DNA of 23,527 nt from a virus. The position numbers were made by a program, and so were the translations under genes. The first letter of the stretch is position 1. Every line of letters starts with the position of its first letter. Below the pieces are notes generated by a model that saw nothing but the letters and a program-made list of their open reading frames with translations, was not told the origin of the DNA and made no database searches. Positions 9,793 to 18,119 of the stretch are shown here, piece by piece. The stretch is taken from the IMG/VR virus record IMGVR_UViG_3300025929_000050, positions 1 to 23,527 of that record; one strand, given 5' to 3'.

Positions 9793-11306
9793 TGCGCGCC
9801 GGCCGGTACCGAAGTAATGAACAGGCCGGCGAGTTCGCCGTAGGTACTGATCGGGACCGTCATGTAATGAATGCGGCGACTCATGGCGCCGTCCCACCGG
9901 GCATTTGTCGCGTCCGCGGTGAAGGTCGCGGTATCGGAGGCGGTGTCGCCCTGGTACTTGCGCCCGCTCACCGTCATATTCGCCAGCGTGCCGCTGTAGG
10001 AGAGCCAGCGCGCCTTGACACCAGTGACCTTAGCGAACGTCATGTCGTCGCCAATGTCGCCGGTCGTAATGCTCATGGTCGCCGAGGAATTGGTATCCCC
10101 GAGCCGTACCGTCTTGATGACGGCGTTCGTCGTCGAGACAACTTGGCCGACGAGCAGAATGTTGGAGGTCGTGTTCGCCGTGGTCCCGAGAGTAGGTTGC
10201 CACGCCGCGATATCCGACAGAGTTGCCTTGACCACGCCGCGGCAGATGCCGGTGTCCCACCCATCCGTAACGTACCCGTACTGGCCCGTTTTCGGATTGA
10301 ACGCGAGCGCATGCTGTCGCGTGTAGGCCGTACTGTCCGCAGTCGTGTTGAAATACCACAGGATCAGGCTGCTCGATTCGTCGTACACCGCGTGCGCGGT
10401 TGCATACTTCGATTGATCCCCGAGCTTCACGCACAAATAGTTGTTTATCAGCGGGCCGATCGGCTGCACCGAAGCGCCGTCGAAGCGGAATATCCCGGTG
10501 CGATGGCAAAAGTAGTGGATGCCATCAACAATTGCGACCCCATGCGGCGACGCGCACCCCACCTTGTCGGTAATCAGGCGCCATGTCCAGAGTAGGGGCG
10601 ATCCCTGATAGTCGCCGAGGTAAACCGAGTCCTCTTTATAGGCAATTACCGACTCGCGCATGTTCACCAGCGCTGTTACGTTGCCCGGCGTGTCGAGCAG
10701 CCTATAATTTCCAGCCTGCGTCGCGGCGTCCGCCGTCCATGTCGCATCGTTTCCGAGCCCGGACCACCATATCTGATCGCCGAGATCATTGACGCCGTTG
10801 TTGCAGTTGCCGAGCAACACGAAATTCTTGTTGGTGGTGCAGCACGCGGCCTTGGGAGGGCTACCCCCGAGGTCGGCAAATGCACTCGAGGCGTTAATGA
10901 CTTGCGGATTGTTACTCTTGCTGACCGCGATGACATCGTTACCATACGAGGTGAACTGCCAATCCTCGTCGTAACGATGGTTGTCGCTCGTAAAGGAATA
11001 ATCTGCGGCGCCCTTGGACCGATCGATCCATGTCGAGGTATCGGTTGCCTCCATGAGTCTTGTGAGGGTGGCAACAAACAGGCGCGCGGTGCCGTCTACC
11101 TTTTTGATGATCGCACCAGTCAGCGGCGTGCTGTAAGTAGATTCCGAAAATGTCGTGCCGAGGGTGGTAGCGCAAGCGTAGTTCTGCAATGTCCCGCGCT
11201 TGGTCGGGACCATGTTCTGAACGTCAGTCAAAACGCCGGGGTTAATTCCCCATGAGGGGTCCAGGTCCGGCGCGAAAACGACGGGAAAATACTTCGTTGA
11301 CGCCAT
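9789..11306 (-). CDS. Tail hub or DNA-stabilisation protein, P22 gp10-like
   Basis: The 505-aa protein is almost entirely beta, with repeated strands such as AIIKKVDGTARLFVATLTRLME, VTALVNMRESVIAYKEDSVYLG and IHYFCHRTGIFRFDGASVQPIG, as in a beta-propeller. The N-terminal INPGVLTDVQNMVPTKRGTLQNY segment is typical of tail nozzle and packaged-DNA stabilisation proteins of short-tailed phages. Such proteins form a hexameric ring below the portal and adaptor, keep the DNA in and hold the receptor-binding apparatus. The gene directly follows the adaptor gene (TGATG overlap), the usual order. The fold is inferred from sequence pattern, not from a search. Confidence 0.75.
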   Translation of the reverse strand: MASTKYFPVVFAPDLDPSWGINPGVLTDVQNMVPTKRGTLQNYACATTLGTTFSESTYSTPLTGAIIKKVDGTARLFVATLTRLMEATDTSTWIDRSKGAADYSFTSDNHRYDEDWQFTSYGNDVIAVSKSNNPQVINASSAFADLGGSPPKAACCTTNKNFVLLGNCNNGVNDLGDQIWWSGLGNDATWTADAATQAGNYRLLDTPGNVTALVNMRESVIAYKEDSVYLGDYQGSPLLWTWRLITDKVGCASPHGVAIVDGIHYFCHRTGIFRFDGASVQPIGPLINNYLCVKLGDQSKYATAHAVYDESSSLILWYFNTTADSTAYTRQHALAFNPKTGQYGYVTDGWDTGICRGVVKATLSDIAAWQPTLGTTANTTSNILLVGQVVSTTNAVIKTVRLGDTNSSATMSITTGDIGDDMTFAKVTGVKARWLSYSGTLANMTVSGRKYQGDTASDTATFTADATNARWDGAMSRRIHYMTVPISTYGELAGLFITSVPAGAQ

Positions 11307-11917
11307 CAGCCCGGACGAATCTGCATCGCCGGCCCCGTTTTGGCGCGGCTCGATTGACGCATGACGAGGGCCAACGCTTCGTCATAGGACTGCTTCCACA
11401 ACGGCGCCCGGTCATCGTTCTGGATCAGTCCCATCGCTTCCAGAAGACTCCCGTAGAGGTATAAATCGGGGTGCGAGTCGAGAATCCAGTTATGGTCCGA
11501 ATCCGCCGACATTTGCGCGAGACCGGCGTAGTAGACGTGCGTCGCGGTGTAGGTGGTATCGGGAATCGGGGCAAAGCGGAATGTGCCGCCGACGACGGTG
11601 AAGAACTCGGGAATCCCTGTCGAGGCGTCAGCGAACCATTCGACCATCTTTTCGGACGATATGTATTGCAACTGGAAACGGGGCGATGTGGACATGACGT
11701 ACATCGTGCGCGTTTCCAGCCAAAGACTCGGCACGTTCACCGATTCCGTGTTGATCGACAGAGCCGCGTCGATCGTTTCCATTTCCCGCGTACGCAAGGT
11801 GCGCATCAGCTTGTCGTGACACAGGGTAATGAAGTCGGGGATATTGCTCGTCTGATCCGCGCGACTCAGCCACGTCGCCACGGCGGTCTTCAGATTGGCG
11901 TAGGTAGCGAGGGCCAT
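11306..11917 (-). CDS. Head-tail adaptor (gp6-like connector)
   Basis: The 203-aa product begins with a helical segment (LKTAVATWLSRADQTSNIPDFITLCHDKLMRTLRTREME). A beta-rich insert follows (about 55-145), then a C-terminal helical part (SLLEAMGLIQNDDRAPLWKQSYDEALALVMRQ). This layout matches phage adaptor proteins that form a 12-fold ring under the portal. The TWLxRxD...IPDFI opening is characteristic of the group. It likely joins the portal to the gp10-like protein encoded next. Junctions on both sides overlap by 1 nt (TAATG and TGATG), supporting stoichiometric translation. Confidence 0.82.
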   Translation of the reverse strand: MALATYANLKTAVATWLSRADQTSNIPDFITLCHDKLMRTLRTREMETIDAALSINTESVNVPSLWLETRTMYVMSTSPRFQLQYISSEKMVEWFADASTGIPEFFTVVGGTFRFAPIPDTTYTATHVYYAGLAQMSADSDHNWILDSHPDLYLYGSLLEAMGLIQNDDRAPLWKQSYDEALALVMRQSSRAKTGPAMQIRPG

Positions 11918-12120
11918 TACGGTTTAGGCGCTGGGGGCTGGGCTTGCTGCTGCTTCAGCCAATCCGCCATTGATAGCGGCTGCTGGCCCTTGGTCATCTG
12001 CATTTCCGCGTAGTCCTGATACGACTGTTGCGTGGTCCCTTTGGGGACCGCGAGGATGCCGGGGCCCGCGTTGGGCTGCGGTTGTGGTTTGCGGCCGAGA
12101 ATAAAGTCGAGTAGGCCCAT
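11917..12120 (-). CDS. Small 67-aa Gln/Pro-rich protein
   Basis: The start is the ATG that overlaps the TAA of the glycosyltransferase gene (TAATG); an upstream ATG at 12159 would overlap that gene by 40 nt. The product starts MGLLDFILGRKPQPQP, a short amphipathic helix then Pro/Gln-rich sequence, a middle with YQDYAEMQMTKGQQPL, and ends QAQPPAPKP. It is not recognised. Its place just before the adaptor and after the sugar cluster marks where the head-neck module resumes. Virion or assembly roles are possible. Confidence 0.6.
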   Translation of the reverse strand: MGLLDFILGRKPQPQPNAGPGILAVPKGTTQQSYQDYAEMQMTKGQQPLSMADWLKQQQAQPPAPKP

Positions 12121-12788
12121 TAAAGAGGTTCCAATACGCGTTGTAGGGTTTGGCGCCATGCCTGCGCGCCCTCTTGATTCTCGTAACCGTCAAAGCAGGG
12201 CGACGCGACCGTGAAGTGGTAGAGCTTCGGGTTCAACGACTTCGGATATTCCATGCACAGGTGATTCCAGGACTTCGCCAGGTCGCCGATCTGCGCATCG
12301 GTGAGCCACGAAAAGCGATGCAAGTAGGAACCTTGCTGCTTGGCAATGAACTCAGGCGTCAGGCAACGATGCGGGTAAAAGCCGCAGTTCCACAAAATGA
12401 CGCTCGACCAATTCTTCCTCGGATAGTCTTCGTTGACGTGGCCGAGATATTTCTTCGGGAATTTCGTCTTGTAATCATGCTTGACCACTTGCACGCCCTG
12501 ATCCAGCCGCTGCGCGTCAAACAGTTTGGCAATGTCATCGCGGAGCAGCACGTCGCTGTCGAGATATACCGCCCGTCCGACAAAGCCGCACAGGTACGGG
12601 ACCAGAAAGCGCGAATAGGTGAAAGCGTTGGAGCCGTCGGTGCAGATTTCCGTGTAGTCGAGCGTGTTGAGCGCCAGCGGAATGATCGCGATCGGCACCG
12701 TCGCGTGCTCGATGAGCGACTGGCAGGCGACGTGGTAGGTGACCGCTTCCTTCTGATCGAAGCCGATAAAAACCGGCAGCGGTCTCAC
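12120..12788 (-). CDS. Glycosyltransferase, GT8-like
   Basis: The 222-aa product opens with PVFIGFDQKEAVTYHVACQSLIEHA, the start of a GT-A fold of GT8 type. It has AFTYSRFLVPYL and the metal and nucleotide-sugar binding motif YLDSDV (Asp77-Ser-Asp79), followed by NWSSVILWNCG and WLTDAQIGDL segments seen in this family. It should transfer a hexose-type sugar from a nucleotide donor; donor and acceptor cannot be read from sequence. The GTG start overlaps the stop of the DegT-fold gene (GTGA), so the two are probably coupled. Length is short compared with many GT8 enzymes, but the core is present. Confidence 0.85.
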   Translation of the reverse strand: MRPLPVFIGFDQKEAVTYHVACQSLIEHATVPIAIIPLALNTLDYTEICTDGSNAFTYSRFLVPYLCGFVGRAVYLDSDVLLRDDIAKLFDAQRLDQGVQVVKHDYKTKFPKKYLGHVNEDYPRKNWSSVILWNCGFYPHRCLTPEFIAKQQGSYLHRFSWLTDAQIGDLAKSWNHLCMEYPKSLNPKLYHFTVASPCFDGYENQEGAQAWRQTLQRVLEPL

Positions 12789-13822
12789 GCTGCCTTACCG
12801 AGCTTCCATTCCATGCGTTCGTGGCTGTTGCCAATCATCAGCGCGCGATCGTGGATATAGTCCGCATTCTCGGTCTTCGTCGCCACGTAGTCATAGGCGT
12901 AGATCACCGGCTGGCGCAGGAAATTGCCGGTGACGACCGGACGACTTTCGTAGGCGCCGACCAACTCACGGTCGTCGTCGTACACGACGAAGCCGAACCA
13001 TGACGATTTGCCGATTTCCTTCTGCGTGCGCAGAGGGAAGCGCACGGCATTCTCGCGCCGCTGTGCGATAAAGCCGGGGAGTTTCTTGAGTTGTTCGATG
13101 CCGATCGCCGACTGCATTTCGGTGGGTCTTACGTTGTAGCCGGGCAGGATGAAGTGAAACTTATCCACCTTCGCGCCGAGCCGGTTCTTGGTCGGCAAAT
13201 GGCGCGTCCAGCCATGCGAGCGCAGCGACAGCAGCATGTGGTAGTAGTACTCGTCATCCGTCGTAATCATCCCGCCTTCCATCGTGCAGATATGGTGCGA
13301 GAAGTACGTCGAATGACTGGACATGACCCCGAAGCTGCCGGCACGACGGCCGTTGTATTCGGCGCCCATCGCCTCGCAGTTGTCTTCGAGGATGGGTAGA
13401 TCGGGCAGCTTGTCGTAGTCGTTCGGGTTGCCGAGCAGATTGATCGTCAGGATCAGATCGGGGCTGTAGCGCTCGCAGGCGCGGTGCAGCGCCGCAACGT
13501 CGTAGTTGAGCGTTTCTCGATCGATATCGACGAAGATCAGCGTCCAGCCGTATTGCTGGAATGGACTGTAAGAAGTTGACCAGCCGACCGCGGGAACGAC
13601 CACGCGGCCCTTGCCGTGGCGCAGCGTGTAGGCGGCGGTCATCAAGAGATTGGCCGACGATCCCGAATTCACCGCGACGCAATATTTCGTCCCGCAATAC
13701 GCGGCGTAAGCGGCCTCGAACGCTTCCGTTCGCGGTCCCATCGTGTAGCGGCCCGACTGCATCACTTCCAATATCGCCGCTTTTTCTTCTGCTCCCCAGG
13801 TATCGGTTGAGAGGGGAATCAT
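12785..13822 (-). CDS. DegT/DnrJ/EryC1-fold sugar enzyme, likely deoxysugar dehydratase-type
   Basis: The 345-aa product has the type I PLP fold of sugar aminotransferases. GSSAN (54-58) binds phosphate, LEDNCEAMGAEYNGRRAGSFG (145-165) carries the Asp147 that contacts the PLP ring nitrogen, and MEGG (181-184) is typical. The internal-aldimine lysine expected just before the EGG motif is replaced: the stretch reads TYFSHHICTMEGG, with His176 in its place. In known enzymes (ColD, and the RfbH/E1 dehydratases) this Lys-to-His change marks PMP-dependent 3-dehydratases of 3,6-dideoxysugar pathways rather than aminotransferases. The substrate is unknown. It sits among glycosyltransferases, which fits synthesis of a modified sugar donor. 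A dehydrated sugar normally needs further enzymes, possibly from the host. Confidence 0.85.
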   Translation of the reverse strand: MIPLSTDTWGAEEKAAILEVMQSGRYTMGPRTEAFEAAYAAYCGTKYCVAVNSGSSANLLMTAAYTLRHGKGRVVVPAVGWSTSYSPFQQYGWTLIFVDIDRETLNYDVAALHRACERYSPDLILTINLLGNPNDYDKLPDLPILEDNCEAMGAEYNGRRAGSFGVMSSHSTYFSHHICTMEGGMITTDDEYYYHMLLSLRSHGWTRHLPTKNRLGAKVDKFHFILPGYNVRPTEMQSAIGIEQLKKLPGFIAQRRENAVRFPLRTQKEIGKSSWFGFVVYDDDRELVGAYESRPVVTGNFLRQPVIYAYDYVATKTENADYIHDRALMIGNSHERMEWKLGKAA

Positions 13823-13828
13823 GCCGGC

Positions 13829-14017
13829 TTACCAGACGTATTGACGTCTGCTCTCGTCCCAATTGATTTTGGGCGCCGGGACGAGCGGGCCAGGGCGATA
13901 CTTGTCCCACATATTGAGCGCGTCGGCGGCGTCTGTATCGCCTCTCGCAACGCGCGCCTTGCAGTACTCAATCAGAAAATGCAGCGAATCAGAGAACGGC
14001 GCATACGGGTCATTCAT
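13829..14017 (-). CDS. Small 62-aa protein within the sugar cluster
   Basis: The ATG has a strong ribosome binding site, AAAGGAGG, 9 nt upstream; a nearer GTG is too close to it. The protein reads as one helical part (SDSLHFLIEYCKARVARGDTDAADALNMWDKY) and a Pro-containing tail ending NWDESRRQYVW. It is not recognised. It overlaps no neighbour and lies between the GT-A gene and the DegT-fold gene. The well-made ribosome site suggests it is translated on its own. It could be a small partner of one of the enzymes, which is a guess. Confidence 0.7.
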   Translation of the reverse strand: MNDPYAPFSDSLHFLIEYCKARVARGDTDAADALNMWDKYRPGPLVPAPKINWDESRRQYVW

Positions 14018-14019
14018 CG

Positions 14020-14730
14020 TCACTTGCCTCCTTTGCGAAACTTGTTTTCCGGCGATCGGCCCTTGATCTTCCTGGGCCCCTTGCAGTGATCCAGATATTT
14101 GCCGATCTCCGTCACCGCCATCGGATGGGGAGCTTTGCAATGTTCCCCGGACAGATTCGTCGTCGTGATCCTGCCATCGGACAAAAACGTCCGAACGGTG
14201 GCATCCATCGTCATGCAGTCGTGCCACTGCGGAAGGACCTTGTAGCGCTCGGAAAAGTAGACATTCCGCCACGCGTCGAGGAAGTTCCGATGCTCCGGGT
14301 GTCTACAGTCCACGATCCACATGCCGGTTTCGGTATACATCCCCGTTCGCTCGAAACGCGCCAGATAGTGGCCGTCTAAGAGCGTTGCCATGAGCGCTTC
14401 CGGTATCTTCTTGTAAGTTACGACATCCGCGTCCAACCACACGCCGATACCGTCGTAGTCGTACAAGGCATCCGCTGCCGCAAAGACCTTGTGCGCGTAG
14501 CCGACCACATTCCATTGCCAACTCGGAGGCTCATAGCCGGCGTGCTTCAGCTTCCATTGCGTGAACGCAGGCAGTTCCGCGAAGTCGGTGGCGATAACGC
14601 CCTTCGGCGCCTCGTAGCCTTCGGTGTACCAGTGGAACTCGGCGCCTGCGGGCCAGTTGGCCATGCCCTTGAGCCAGCGATGGCCGTAGAGTTCCAAGCC
14701 GGTCTTGTTGCACGTGGTTACGACGCGCAT
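14020..14730 (-). CDS. Glycosyltransferase, GT-A fold
   Basis: The 236-aa product begins MRVVTTCNKTGLELYGHRWL, followed by a GT-A core. The motif GVWLDADVVTYKKIP contains the Asp-x-Asp metal and nucleotide-sugar site (Asp100, Asp102), preceded by a VGYAHKVFAAADAL helix. Downstream are TGMWIVDCRHPEHRNFLDAWRNVY and WHDCMTMDATVR, typical of the acceptor half in this broad group. The C terminus is basic (GPRKIKGRSPENKFRKGGK) and may touch the membrane or an anionic acceptor. Donor and acceptor are unknown. It starts 13 nt inside the preceding gene, so it is part of the same operon. Confidence 0.8.
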   Translation of the reverse strand: MRVVTTCNKTGLELYGHRWLKGMANWPAGAEFHWYTEGYEAPKGVIATDFAELPAFTQWKLKHAGYEPPSWQWNVVGYAHKVFAAADALYDYDGIGVWLDADVVTYKKIPEALMATLLDGHYLARFERTGMYTETGMWIVDCRHPEHRNFLDAWRNVYFSERYKVLPQWHDCMTMDATVRTFLSDGRITTTNLSGEHCKAPHPMAVTEIGKYLDHCKGPRKIKGRSPENKFRKGGK

Positions 14731-15389
14731 GAGTAGCAGTAGTCTTTCAAGTTAAGACGGTCCAATTCGGGGAGCGCCCAATTCGCATACGTGAGGGAGG
14801 CAAGCCATGGCCCCCGCTCCTTGTATTCGGGCGTCTCGATTTGCTCAACACTGCCCGCTGATATAGGCAAGCTCGGACAGATCGGCCCCGCAAACACGGG
14901 CACGCCCATCCGTGCAGCTTCCACACCCGCGGCAGAGCCATAGGTCACCACCGCCCAGGACTCGCGCAGGTATTCGGCCAGGGGCAGGTTCTTGTCCCGC
15001 TTCACGCGCACCGGCCGCTCGGTCACCTGCTTCAGCGTTGCCAAGGTCTGATCCAGCCATGCGTCGGCTCCGAAAATATCCACGTGATAGCGCGACGGCG
15101 GGATCACGACCACGTCCAGCCCGCTCTTGCGCCACGGCGCAACGCTCACGTTCCACTTCTCGAAGCGGTCAGTAGGCCGTTCCAGCAGGCGGGTAAGGTG
15201 AAATCCGCGGCGGATCAGGCGGAAATTGGTCGACCTCGACCCGCGCTTGAAATACGCGTTGTCGAGATACAGGAAATCAAGCCCTTCCAGGACGTAGCGC
15301 TTCAATTCCGGGTCAGTGAGCCCGGCGAAGACCTTGATTCCTGATTCGCGCAGCTTTAACTCGATGGCGTCCCATATCTCCCACTTCAC
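14718..15389 (-). CDS. GT-B-like transferase, capsule-synthesis type
   Basis: The 223-aa protein carries the C-terminal half signature of GT-B and capsule-type transferases: VVIPPSR (94-100), then AVVTYGSAAGVEAARMGVPVFAG (146-168), where Ser/Gly-rich and acidic residues bind the nucleotide-sugar. An N-terminal Rossmann half is short. The protein resembles KpsC/KpsS or glycerophosphotransferase-like enzymes that act on surface polysaccharide, but the exact group is not certain. GTG start overlaps the stop of the TPR-GT gene (GTGA). Together with its neighbours it argues for a multi-enzyme glycan pathway. Confidence 0.7.
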   Translation of the reverse strand: MKWEIWDAIELKLRESGIKVFAGLTDPELKRYVLEGLDFLYLDNAYFKRGSRSTNFRLIRRGFHLTRLLERPTDRFEKWNVSVAPWRKSGLDVVVIPPSRYHVDIFGADAWLDQTLATLKQVTERPVRVKRDKNLPLAEYLRESWAVVTYGSAAGVEAARMGVPVFAGPICPSLPISAGSVEQIETPEYKERGPWLASLTYANWALPELDRLNLKDYCYSCAS

Positions 15390-16786
15390 GCCGCCTCTGC
15401 CAGCGGCACCACGAACGCGCCGTAGTCTCTGGCAAGTCGCGCGATGGCGTGCTGCCAGTCCTTCTCGCCCTTGGCCTGCCGGTACAGCTTCACGGAGTCG
15501 CGCGGGTACCAGACGATGCCATCGTTATCGTATCCGTAGCGCCACGCCGGTTGCGCATTGACCAGCACCGAGGCTTTCTTGCCGAGCGCGCCGCAGACAT
15601 GGGCCACGGTCGTGGTCACGGTGACGACGTGATCCAGTTCGGAAATCAGCGCGACGGTCTCGTCGTAGTCGCCGTCGTTGTCCAGATTCGGAACGTGAAC
15701 CTGCTCGCGGTTATCGATGTTCCAGCGCGCGATCTCCAGTCCCACATCCTGATAGGCCAGATTGATGAACGAGCCGCCCCGCTTGAACACGGGGGCTAGT
15801 TCTTCGAGCTTGATCGAACGCGCAAGGTGATTGGTGCGCGGAATGCCGCCGCGCCAGGCGACGCCAATCCATGGCTTCGGGAATTGCTCCAACCACGCGC
15901 GCCACTTCTGCGCCTTCTCCGGGTCCGCCGTGATGTACGGAACGCGCGGAAAGTCGGCGTCGATCTTGCGGTAGTAGGTCCCAAGCCACGAGATATGCAC
16001 ATGCGCGTCGATCTGATACTTGCGCGGCCACGTGAGACCGCCCTTCGTGTCCAGCGTGTCGTATACGTCGATTGCTGGCCAATTCCGGCGGAACAGGGGC
16101 GCCAGTCTCGTATTCGTCTCGACGATGACCTTCTTGCAGTCGCGGACGAGTTCGGGGAGACATTGCGCGAACATAATCATGTCGCCCAAGCCCTGATCGG
16201 CCTGCACGACGACGGTCTGGCCCTTGCTCCCATCCCAGGTCGGCTCCTCCCGCTCGGGCGGGTTGTAAACGCGGATGGTCAGCTTGTCGCCGTACAGGTA
16301 AGCCGAATCCTTCCAGCCCTCGGCCCAGCGGCCTAGTGACAGATTGCCGAAAGCGCGCGCAATTCGCGCGATAGGATTCGCATCAGCGAGAGCCAGCGCC
16401 TTGTCCGCCCACTCAACGGCCTCGCGCGCCTTTCCTTGCTGGACATAGCCCGCGGCAATATTGGCCGGCGGCTGCGCATCCTGCGGCAGCGTCTTGTGGA
16501 CGTGCAGGAAGGCTTCGCGGGCATCGTCATACTGATGCGTGTCGTGCAAACAAGAGCCGAAGTGCATCCAGATATTGGGAATCTTCCGCTCGCGCGCCAA
16601 TGCTCTGCGAAACAGTTGCAGGGCGATGCCGACGTGCCCCATCTGGCGCATGATGCAGCCGGCCAGATACAGCAGTTGCGGCTGATCGGGGTGATCGTTG
16701 AGCATTTCCGCGACTTGCGGCCATGCCTTGGTGTATTCCTCGCGTTCCACCCAATTGAAGCATTGCTTGATCCTGCTATCGATCAT
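15386..16786 (-). CDS. TPR-glycosyltransferase fusion, GT9/GT41-like
   Basis: The 466-aa product has tetratricopeptide-like helix pairs over residues about 2-165 (for example YLAGCIMRQMGHVGIALQLFRRAL and AAGYVQQGKAREAVEWADKAL). A GT-B catalytic part follows: QADQGLGDMIMFAQCLPEL (195-213), WIGVAWRGG (306-314), HVVTVTTTVAHVCGALGK (386-403) and GYDNDGIVWYPRD (418-430). This combination resembles O-GlcNAc transferase-like and heptosyltransferase-like proteins. TPRs often bind a protein acceptor, so a protein-modifying role is possible, but it is inferred. Its position right after the capsid module is unusual. It begins 11 nt inside the previous gene. Confidence 0.85.
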   Translation of the reverse strand: MIDSRIKQCFNWVEREEYTKAWPQVAEMLNDHPDQPQLLYLAGCIMRQMGHVGIALQLFRRALARERKIPNIWMHFGSCLHDTHQYDDAREAFLHVHKTLPQDAQPPANIAAGYVQQGKAREAVEWADKALALADANPIARIARAFGNLSLGRWAEGWKDSAYLYGDKLTIRVYNPPEREEPTWDGSKGQTVVVQADQGLGDMIMFAQCLPELVRDCKKVIVETNTRLAPLFRRNWPAIDVYDTLDTKGGLTWPRKYQIDAHVHISWLGTYYRKIDADFPRVPYITADPEKAQKWRAWLEQFPKPWIGVAWRGGIPRTNHLARSIKLEELAPVFKRGGSFINLAYQDVGLEIARWNIDNREQVHVPNLDNDGDYDETVALISELDHVVTVTTTVAHVCGALGKKASVLVNAQPAWRYGYDNDGIVWYPRDSVKLYRQAKGEKDWQHAIARLARDYGAFVVPLAEAA

Positions 16787-17108
16787 GGTGATACGAGGTG
16801 GTCTTGCAATAGGCGTAGTCGGGACTGTTGAGCAGCTTCATCCAGCCCTTCTTATGGTCGGGATTGGCGAAATTGACGCCGTATTTGGTGAGCCATTCCA
16901 TCTGCACGATGACCGGCACGCGGGCATAGCGCGCCCATTCTTCCTTGGCGCCGCGGCGGTGCGCCTCTTCGTCGAGCCGATCCAAGCGGTTGGCTTCCAG
17001 AATCGCGGAAGCGTCCTGGTGATAGCCGATGTAGGTCTGATCGCTCGCGTGGTCGTACTCGAACGTCGTGGTGAGCCCGGTAAACGGGTCGTAGTCGATC
17101 TCTTTCAA
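16776..17108 (-). CDS. Small conserved phage protein of unknown function
   Basis: The 110-aa product opens KEIDYDPFTGLTTTFEYDHASDQTYIGYHQDASAILEANR-like sequence, an all-beta start, and continues with EEWARYARVPVIVQMEWLTKYGVNF, a Trp/Tyr-rich helix, and a C-terminal LNSPDYAYCKTT segment. I recall similar proteins next to capsid genes of short-tailed phages, without a known role. The start proposed is TTG (17106-17108); no ATG or GTG is available and no ribosome binding site is seen. The frame continues upstream without a stop to the major capsid TAG, 17 codons before, so another start or readthrough cannot be ruled out. Confidence 0.65.
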   Translation of the reverse strand: MKEIDYDPFTGLTTTFEYDHASDQTYIGYHQDASAILEANRLDRLDEEAHRRGAKEEWARYARVPVIVQMEWLTKYGVNFANPDHKKGWMKLLNSPDYAYCKTTSYHHDR

Positions 17109-17150: not shown

Positions 17151-18119
17151 CTAGTTGACGTTGGTCAGCTTGGTATTCGCCGTCGGCGTGGTCGCCACCA
17201 GCGTGTACTCCCCGACCAGCATGCGCTTCTCGCTGTCGCCGGACTTGGCGATGTTCTCCATGTGGATCGGGTCTAGCCAAGCCACCGCCCAGGTGGACAT
17301 ATCCAGGCAGAGAACGGCCGAGGCCCGCATGTAGCGCGACAGTTGAATCTTGTGCGAGCCATAGGACGAGACGTAGATGTCCGCCGCGCCCACGATCGCC
17401 GCCTGATCCCCCGCCGCCACGTTGCGGAAGCGCGTCGCCTGACCCGTAAAGGCGTCCGACTTGTTCTTCAGCGTCGGCGATAGCAGGATCACGTCCGTCT
17501 CGCCGCCCTGACTCCACGCCTGCAACAGCGCGTTCTTCAGATCGGATTCGATGAACGCCGTAGCCGTGCCGTCCGTACCCGCCGTCGATGCCAGTCCCGA
17601 AACCGGGGCGGGCGTCGTGTTGGTCGTGACTCCAGCCGCCGCTACGTCGTTGACCGTGTAAATCCACGTCTCAACAGCAGCAGCCGAACGCGGGCTGGCC
17701 GAGGTACCGGCCGAGGCCACTTCCTTCGACAGCAGATGGCTCTCGATGTCGCGCTTGATGCTCTTGCCCTTCATCACCGTCTGGTAGGCCAGCTCTTCCT
17801 TGCGCCCGGCGGTGTTGACCTTGTTCGCGGTGCGCGTGATTACGAAGTCCTTGCGCGCGATCTGCGCGTAGTTCTTCAGCCGGCTCGTCGGATTGATGAC
17901 CTGCGCCGAGAAGTCGTCGCCTTCCGTGTACTTGTTGGTGGATGACGGCGTGTCGAGGTGATCCGTCTGCCATTCATGCAGGACCGTTTTCGCGGTCTTG
18001 CGGCCCGCGTTGGTGAAGAAGTACGTCTCCATCGGGCTGATGTTGTAGATGATGTCTTCCAGGTCTTCGCGAACGCCGACCTGGTTGTAGACCTGAAACA
18101 CACCTGTTGGGGTGCCCAT
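17151..18119 (-). CDS. Major capsid protein, DUF5309/SU10-type
   Basis: The 322-aa product matches the DUF5309 head-protein plan. The N-terminal arm reads VREDLEDIIYNISPMETYFFTNAGRK, followed by VLHEWQTDHLDTPSSTNKYTEGDDF and LKNYAQIARKDFVITRTANKVNTAGRKEELAYQ. The C-terminal half contains DVILLSPTLKNKSDAF and WAVAWLDPIHMENIAKSGDSEKRMLVGEYTL. Members have the HK97 capsid fold and assemble the icosahedral shell. Gene order (scaffold before it) fits. The ATG has a good ribosome site, AAGGAG, 6 nt upstream, and a small GNRA-loop hairpin just before that. The gene ends in TAG. Confidence 0.93.
   Translation of the reverse strand: MGTPTGVFQVYNQVGVREDLEDIIYNISPMETYFFTNAGRKTAKTVLHEWQTDHLDTPSSTNKYTEGDDFSAQVINPTSRLKNYAQIARKDFVITRTANKVNTAGRKEELAYQTVMKGKSIKRDIESHLLSKEVASAGTSASPRSAAAVETWIYTVNDVAAAGVTTNTTPAPVSGLASTAGTDGTATAFIESDLKNALLQAWSQGGETDVILLSPTLKNKSDAFTGQATRFRNVAAGDQAAIVGAADIYVSSYGSHKIQLSRYMRASAVLCLDMSTWAVAWLDPIHMENIAKSGDSEKRMLVGEYTLVATTPTANTKLTNVN

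Follow-up and report, generated by a model that had tools for sequence, protein, structure and literature searches.

We analysed a stretch of viral DNA of 23,527 bases, the complete IMG/VR record IMGVR_UViG_3300025929_000050 (hereafter the window), which covers part of a podovirus genome and carries SU10/LUZ24-type head genes on its minus strand. Between a small head gene, p110, and the SU10-type adaptor gene lie six co-directional genes (12120-16786, minus strand) for, in this order, a glycosyltransferase with tetratricopeptide repeats (TPR-GT), two further putative glycosyltransferases (GTB223 and GTA236), a small protein (p62), a DegT-fold enzyme of the ColD type, and a GT8-type glycosyltransferase (GT8). 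Our reading, which we hold to be fairly probable, is that this cassette serves a phage-encoded, soluble, cytoplasmic glycosylation of a virion protein that is started by TPR-GT, and we infer the acceptor to be most likely the major capsid protein (MCP). A preliminary description of the window had placed the six genes in the head operon, between the capsid gene with its small follower and the adaptor gene, and had most of them joined by overlapping starts. All six are present at that position, and most do overlap: the junctions from p110 through to the adaptor measure -11, -4, -13, +2, +6, -4, -1, and -1 nt.

Linkage to the capsid gene across phages

Surveyed loci carry L-numbers and surveyed records G-numbers; most of the contigs are fragments, and absences from them are therefore weak evidence. 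The survey from the capsid side comprised 98 loci with this MCP, 74 of them with the adaptor in view. TPR-GT is present in 30 of the 74, always between MCP/p110 and the adaptor and nowhere else in view. Part of the 98-locus set had been found through GT8, and the subset found through the MCP only was tested apart: there GT8 occurs in 14 of the 22 loci with TPR-GT and in none of the 44 without it (Fisher p=4e-9, an optimistic value because the loci are related). On an MCP tree of 79 rows the cassette-bearing loci form one clade (36/36, support 100), with a single change of the cassette label compared with 26 when the labels are shuffled. The clade includes MCPs only about 39% identical to that of the window; TPR-GT has thus persisted through a long divergence. 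Phage-encoded glycosyltransferases are thus linked to virion genes in the surveyed loci, and in many other phages, too, the cassette genes occur together and linked with capsid genes rather than scattered.

Two arrangements were discerned. In type A (the window, L028, L034, L035, L037, L043, L044, and others) the order is MCP-p110-TPRGT-[variable]-GT8-adaptor; GT8 is usually the last cassette gene ahead of the adaptor, and in some type A phages it is found upstream of TerL instead. In type B (L006-L014) the same kit sits just upstream of TerL, portal, and another MCP, and in the type B proteins that were checked ca. 95 other N-terminal residues replace the TPR part before the glycosyltransferase domain. 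Elsewhere in the lineage the variable positions are taken by methyltransferases or a radical-SAM enzyme. The cassette is modular, with a fixed TPR-GT and exchangeable GT8 and sugar genes. The multi-step glycosylation system of the preliminary description stands insofar as a ColD-type gene is present here and its predicted upstream partner in relatives (see below), but not as a fixed set of six genes.

The small capsid follower of that description is also real, albeit an ordinary head gene of LUZ24-type phages: p110 (16776-17108, minus strand; phrog_3982), at the upstream edge of the cassette, occurs in loci both with and without the cassette, and in LUZ24 its position between MCP and adaptor is taken by gp61. 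LUZ24 (Bruynoghevirus) has the same MCP-p110-adaptor order, without the cassette.

Alternatively, the stretch between MCP and adaptor might be a hot spot for insertions and the genes passengers there, unconnected with the virion. The interval does accommodate other genes: two phages have HNH endonucleases there, two Manatee Spring phages a lone annotated glycosyltransferase, and a further phage a GDSL hydrolase. In addition, the GT8 and MT2 genes hardly track the MCP. Passengers would, however, be patchy, whereas TPR-GT is found throughout one deep clade with its motif residues invariant. We regard this explanation as very improbable, although it may apply to individual add-on genes. The hydrolase belongs to phiM5 (L055, 5397-6707), where a GDSL/SGNH protein, noted as detected in virions, is encoded between the MCP and the p110 homologue.

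Co-divergence of TPR-GT and the capsid protein

Pairwise identities were correlated in a ten-gene matrix over the 21 taxa that remained after dereplication at 80% MCP identity. The MCP (17151-18119, minus strand; SU10/LUZ24 type, PF17236, 1e-77) and TPR-GT gave the highest coefficient of all pairs (rho 0.68). For the MCP the other values were 0.35 with p110, 0.32 with the scaffold, 0.44 with the portal, 0.21 with the adaptor, 0.17 with GT8, and 0.32 with MT2. Although p110 lies between MCP and TPR-GT, the signal is weaker there (rho of TPR-GT to p110 0.28, and to the adaptor 0.13). In a partial Mantel test that controlled for scaffold, p110, and adaptor, the MCP-TPRGT correlation remained (r=0.66, p=0.0005), and with TPR-GT cut to 105 columns it still averaged 0.57, which excludes protein length as the cause. 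Genes for GT8 and the methyltransferase barely follow the MCP, as exchangeable parts would. That TPR-GT has evolved in step with the MCP points to a sugar coat which these phages put on their own particles.

The same machinery could also glycosylate another virion protein, such as p110, the adaptor, or a tail or fibre protein. Indeed, the cassette is nearly always bordered by p110 and the adaptor, and the jumbo phage CcrColossus (L046, 3620-8173) has a sialyltransferase-like gene, a GT8-like gene, and an annotated GT9 gene after a tail protein gene and ahead of its lysis genes. We nevertheless consider this unlikely: TPR-GT co-diverges with the MCP far above p110 and the adaptor, and the p110 homologue of phiM5 lacks the note of proteome detection that several of its neighbours have.

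Within the MCP, residues 168-170 read TTP and lie in a loop rich in serine and threonine. The motif [ST][ST]P occurs in 30 of 36 MCPs from cassette phages and in 7 of 43 others, while the combined serine and threonine content of the two groups is alike (0.185 and 0.179, respectively). As an independent sign of an acceptor site the loop was set aside, since the cassette clade counts as one event; it serves as a lead only. The SU10 capsid paper gives no residue numbers by which to place it.

Domains and fold of TPR-GT

TPR-GT (15386-16786, minus strand; 466 aa) is matched by Pfam TPR families. In its AlphaFold2 (AF2) model (pLDDT 91) residues 1-170 are predicted to form a TPR superhelix and residues 185-462 a GT-B domain of the GT9/GT41 type. 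The best Foldseek matches of the whole chain are the GT41 enzymes SPINDLY (8dtf, 2e-10), XcOGT, and human OGT, at low TM-scores that, in the model, are a matter of a common architecture with differently set domains rather than of detailed superposition. SPINDLY uses GDP-fucose, a GDP-deoxyhexose. Taken separately, the TPR part matches the TPR superhelix of OGT (1w3b: Z 19.3, rmsd 3.9, 170 residues), and the glycosyltransferase part, which has no sequence match to GT41, fits the GT9 structure 3tov well (Z 17.8, rmsd 3.5, 260 residues aligned); GT9 and GT41, both near in fold, are inseparable for this protein. A QGxGD motif and H396 are invariant over 32 relatives. As a single-sequence query TPR-GT retrieved zero relatives from viral_contigs; its relatives were reached through the ColD, GT8, GTA236, and MCP searches.

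The layout of an N-terminal TPR part and a C-terminal GT-B domain is that of TPR-bearing protein glycosyltransferases of the FlmG and GT41 kind. FlmG of Caulobacter crescentus is soluble and binds flagellin through its TPR domain; flagellin is glycosylated in the cytoplasm, and the glycosyltransferase domain alone does not bind it (PMC7591256). The likeness to TPR-GT is one of domain architecture: FlmG transfers pseudaminic acid to flagellin, and its TPR part comprises residues 1-313 as compared with 1-170. The suggestion of the preliminary description that the TPR domain could hold a protein acceptor gains from this precedent, from the GT41-like architecture, and from the co-divergence with the MCP, and we propose TPR-GT as the initiating enzyme that would bind the protein acceptor.

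The ColD-type enzyme and its probable sugar

The DegT-fold enzyme (12785-13822, minus strand; 345 aa, PF01041 2e-59) has as its best PDB match ColD (2gms, 1e-93), 64 orders of magnitude ahead of the best aminotransferase (3e-29). The lysine that binds pyridoxal phosphate (PLP) is replaced by His176, in the motif FSHHI and aligned with His188 of ColD. Histidine holds the catalytic position in the window and in all aligned phage relatives except L003, which has lysine. Such a change of lysine to histidine is the mark of nucleotide-sugar 3-dehydratases, and ColD works without an iron-sulphur cluster (PMC8987622). An aminotransferase is ruled out by the strength of the ColD match and by the histidine in place of the PLP lysine; by its sequence the enzyme is a ColD-type nucleotide-sugar 3-dehydratase, with His176 as its predicted catalytic residue. 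It shares with ColD the conserved histidine and the DegT/aspartate-aminotransferase fold, and differs from it by short deletions (345 as compared with 390 aa), by being phage-borne, and by the lack of ColC and GDP-mannose 4,6-dehydratase (GMD) genes in the window.

ColD relatives accompany GTA236, GT8, and often TPR-GT. In L006-L013 and L044 a GMD gene lies directly upstream of the ColD gene, and these are two consecutive steps of one pathway. From these neighbours the sugar of the cassette is probably a GDP-linked 3,6-dideoxyhexose; they also support GDP-4-keto-6-deoxymannose as the substrate of the 3-dehydration that a ColD-type enzyme would carry out. For the window phage, GMD may come from the host or be encoded outside the contig.

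Beside the ColD gene, 12 phage loci (L004-L014, L044) have a radical-SAM/SPASM gene, which is not in the window and possibly encodes the step after the 3-dehydratase. Directly upstream of TerL, L003 (MW202713, 2048-6581) has a TPR-less glycosyltransferase, GTA236, a methyltransferase, GTB223, and a DegT-fold gene. The latter keeps the PLP lysine and is thus probably an aminotransferase, which would make this an equivalent cassette for a different sugar.

The remaining cassette genes

GT8 (12120-12788, minus strand; 222 aa, PF01501 3e-6, phrog_28018 1e-41) has a DSD motif of which D77 and D79 are invariant in 20 relatives. GTA236 (14020-14730, minus strand; 236 aa, with a DAD motif) has no Pfam match and is predicted to have a GT-A fold by an AF2 model of pLDDT 91.8. 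Its matches to glycogenin (Z 14.4, rmsd 3.7, 191 residues) and to the PBCV-1 capsid glycosyltransferase 2p72 (Z 13.8, rmsd 3.0, 172 residues) are tied and tell its fold only; relatives are found in L003-L013, L044, and L056. GTB223 (14718-15389, minus strand; 223 aa) is the weakest assignment in the cassette. It resembles the C-terminal half of a GT-B protein, its only family match is DUF6716 ('putative glycosyltransferase', E=0.012, below the cut-off), and its profile had no match in the PDB; L003, L034, L042, L043, L057, L058, and L059 carry relatives. Of the enzyme families named in the preliminary description, the TPR-bearing glycosyltransferase, the GT-A enzyme, GT8, and the DegT fold have held, the last as a 3-dehydratase, while the GT-B-like one has the sub-threshold DUF6716 match only. 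The orphan p62 (13829-14017, minus strand; 62 aa) lies inside the cassette behind a strong ribosome-binding site (AGGAGG); neither a family (Pfam, PHROGs, NCBIfam) nor a relative in the surveyed loci was found for it. L194, a contig of 4,040 bases from a Planctomycetota metagenome-assembled genome, has GT8, radical-SAM, methyltransferase, and SU10 adaptor genes in a row, as at the adaptor end of the cassette; this phage fragment in a bacterial bin is possibly a hint to the host or a binning error.

Bacterial relatives, host surface, and DNA

The search of genome_contigs with GT8 gave chromosomal loci rather than prophages. In 37 of these 63 GT8 loci (L136-L198) TPR-GT lies near GT8, without phage genes; the carriers (Polynucleobacter, SAR116, Aestuariivirga, and others) are mostly aquatic Proteobacteria. 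Among the neighbours checked no flagellar genes were found beside the TPR-GT/GT8 pairs. The bacterial loci L139, L153, and L163 also have relatives of GTA236 and GTB223.

Such relatives lend something to the idea that the targets of the enzymes are glycans of the host surface, or a host surface protein such as flagellin or pilin, modified late in infection so as to block re-infection or adsorption to debris: GT8 and TPR-GT have relatives in bacterial chromosomes, ColD and E1 normally feed O-antigen synthesis, and FlmG modifies flagellin. No cassette protein, however, has a membrane-like segment, and neither GtrA nor a phosphoglycosyl transferase (Bac_transf) was found in 14 records, most of them of 35-47 kb. 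The GtrA-like flippase or membrane glycosyltransferase that is the hallmark of Gtr-type O-antigen conversion is therefore absent from these records and from the cassette proteins. A role at the host surface would also leave the evolution of TPR-GT in step with the MCP unexplained. This alternative, which the preliminary description had offered, thus finds no support and seems improbable to us, and glycosylation of a virion protein is preferred over it.

Glycosylation of phage DNA bases is highly improbable. It is known from phages (for example a pentose reported on the DNA of Thanatos), and one cassette-bearing phage (G014, the record of L076) encodes a TET/JBP-like dioxygenase (11544-11957), which hints at modified DNA bases in that phage. 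Yet among the 14 records, which may be incomplete, this is the only TET/JBP gene, the thymidylate synthase/hydroxymethylase family is found in none, and the fold matches of the cassette enzymes are transferases acting on proteins or glycans.

Several observations weigh against glycosylation of the capsid protein. The co-divergence is not confined to the TPR part, as the glycosyltransferase half is at least as strong (rho to the MCP 0.68, TPR half 0.47), and both the co-divergence and the single clade would also fit tight co-inheritance without physical contact. The MCP-adaptor interval takes varied genes, so that position alone is weak evidence. The type B relatives, with another MCP, appear from their sequences to have the glycosyltransferase domain without the TPR part. 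The chromosomal TPR-GT/GT8 pairs would have no need of a capsid acceptor; phages may have taken this core pair from cells, where it would glycosylate proteins, or it may act on something else. The profile of the glycosyltransferase domain had no significant sequence match in the PDB, the sole match being a GT9 heptosyltransferase (E 0.24). Finally, of the GDP-colitose set of GMD, ColD, and ColC, GMD is not in the window, itself a fragment, and no ColC-like reductase (PF01370) was found in four ColD-bearing records (G001, G002, G003, G010), in which the only short-chain dehydrogenase/reductase is GMD.

Other features of the window

The gene order on the minus strand is TerL, portal, scaffold, MCP, p110, cassette, adaptor, and a further virion structural protein. 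Between GT8 and the adaptor (11306-11917, minus strand; tail tubular A-like, PF24175 1e-33), which forms the downstream edge of the cassette, lies p80 (11917-12120, minus strand), a small protein likely of 67 aa from the ATG at 12120, whose start overlaps the GT8 stop and for which Pfam, PHROGs, and NCBIfam gave no family. The coding strand between 11000 and 19600 yielded no sigma-70-like promoter. A terminator-like hairpin with a T-run is located at the ColD/GT8 junction (12794-12775, minus strand); in total, terminator-like sites are about as many here as chance would give. The phage records searched had no match to the window at the nucleotide level.

Proposed mechanism and meaning

To our knowledge, glycosylation of phage virions has been shown in few systems. 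A viral precedent for a virus-encoded capsid glycan is the chlorovirus PBCV-1, which builds its own from host GDP-mannose with a virus-encoded GMD and mostly soluble glycosyltransferases and methyltransferases (PMC9614988). Domain 1 of its protein A064R is structurally near GTA236. PBCV-1 differs from the cassette phages in being a giant algal virus with an N-linked glycan, no TPR-GT reported, and glycosyltransferase genes that are not in one capsid operon. The mycobacteriophages Che8 and Rita have capsids that are reported to be glycosylated by phage-encoded glycosyltransferases (Freeman 2023, cited in PMC11256854). Unlike in the cassette, the glycosyltransferase genes of their relative Maravista are found towards the 3' end of the genome rather than by the capsid gene. 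With FlmG, PBCV-1, and Che8/Rita as precedents, the most fitting reading is that the conserved first gene, matched to the MCP, encodes the enzyme that recognises the acceptor, and that the variable genes build the glycan.

We propose that the cassette acts during head assembly. The TPR domain would bind a virion protein, most likely the MCP, and the GT9/GT41-type domain of TPR-GT would attach the first sugar, after which GT8, GTA236, and GTB223 would extend the glycan. ColD would divert a branch of the GDP-mannose pathway (GDP-4-keto-6-deoxymannose) to a GDP-linked 3,6-dideoxy sugar, with which the glycan would be terminated or decorated. The capsid would thereby acquire a sugar coat of its own, of presumed benefit to the phage. 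On a larger scale, the chances seem to us evenly balanced that a whole environmental lineage of LUZ24/SU10-type podoviruses has an obligate O-glycosyltransferase, specific to the capsid and co-evolving with the MCP, together with exchangeable sugar genes, such that each phage would have a different glycan coat, the window's with a ColD-derived 3,6-dideoxy sugar. If true, capsid glycosylation would be stably maintained in a podovirus lineage that is widespread in the environment, and in which the initiating enzyme is clear and the decoration genes can be swapped. The role of capsid glycans for phages outside animals would then become directly testable, and TPR-GT and its capsid protein would form a compact pair in which to study how a cytoplasmic glycosyltransferase picks its protein.

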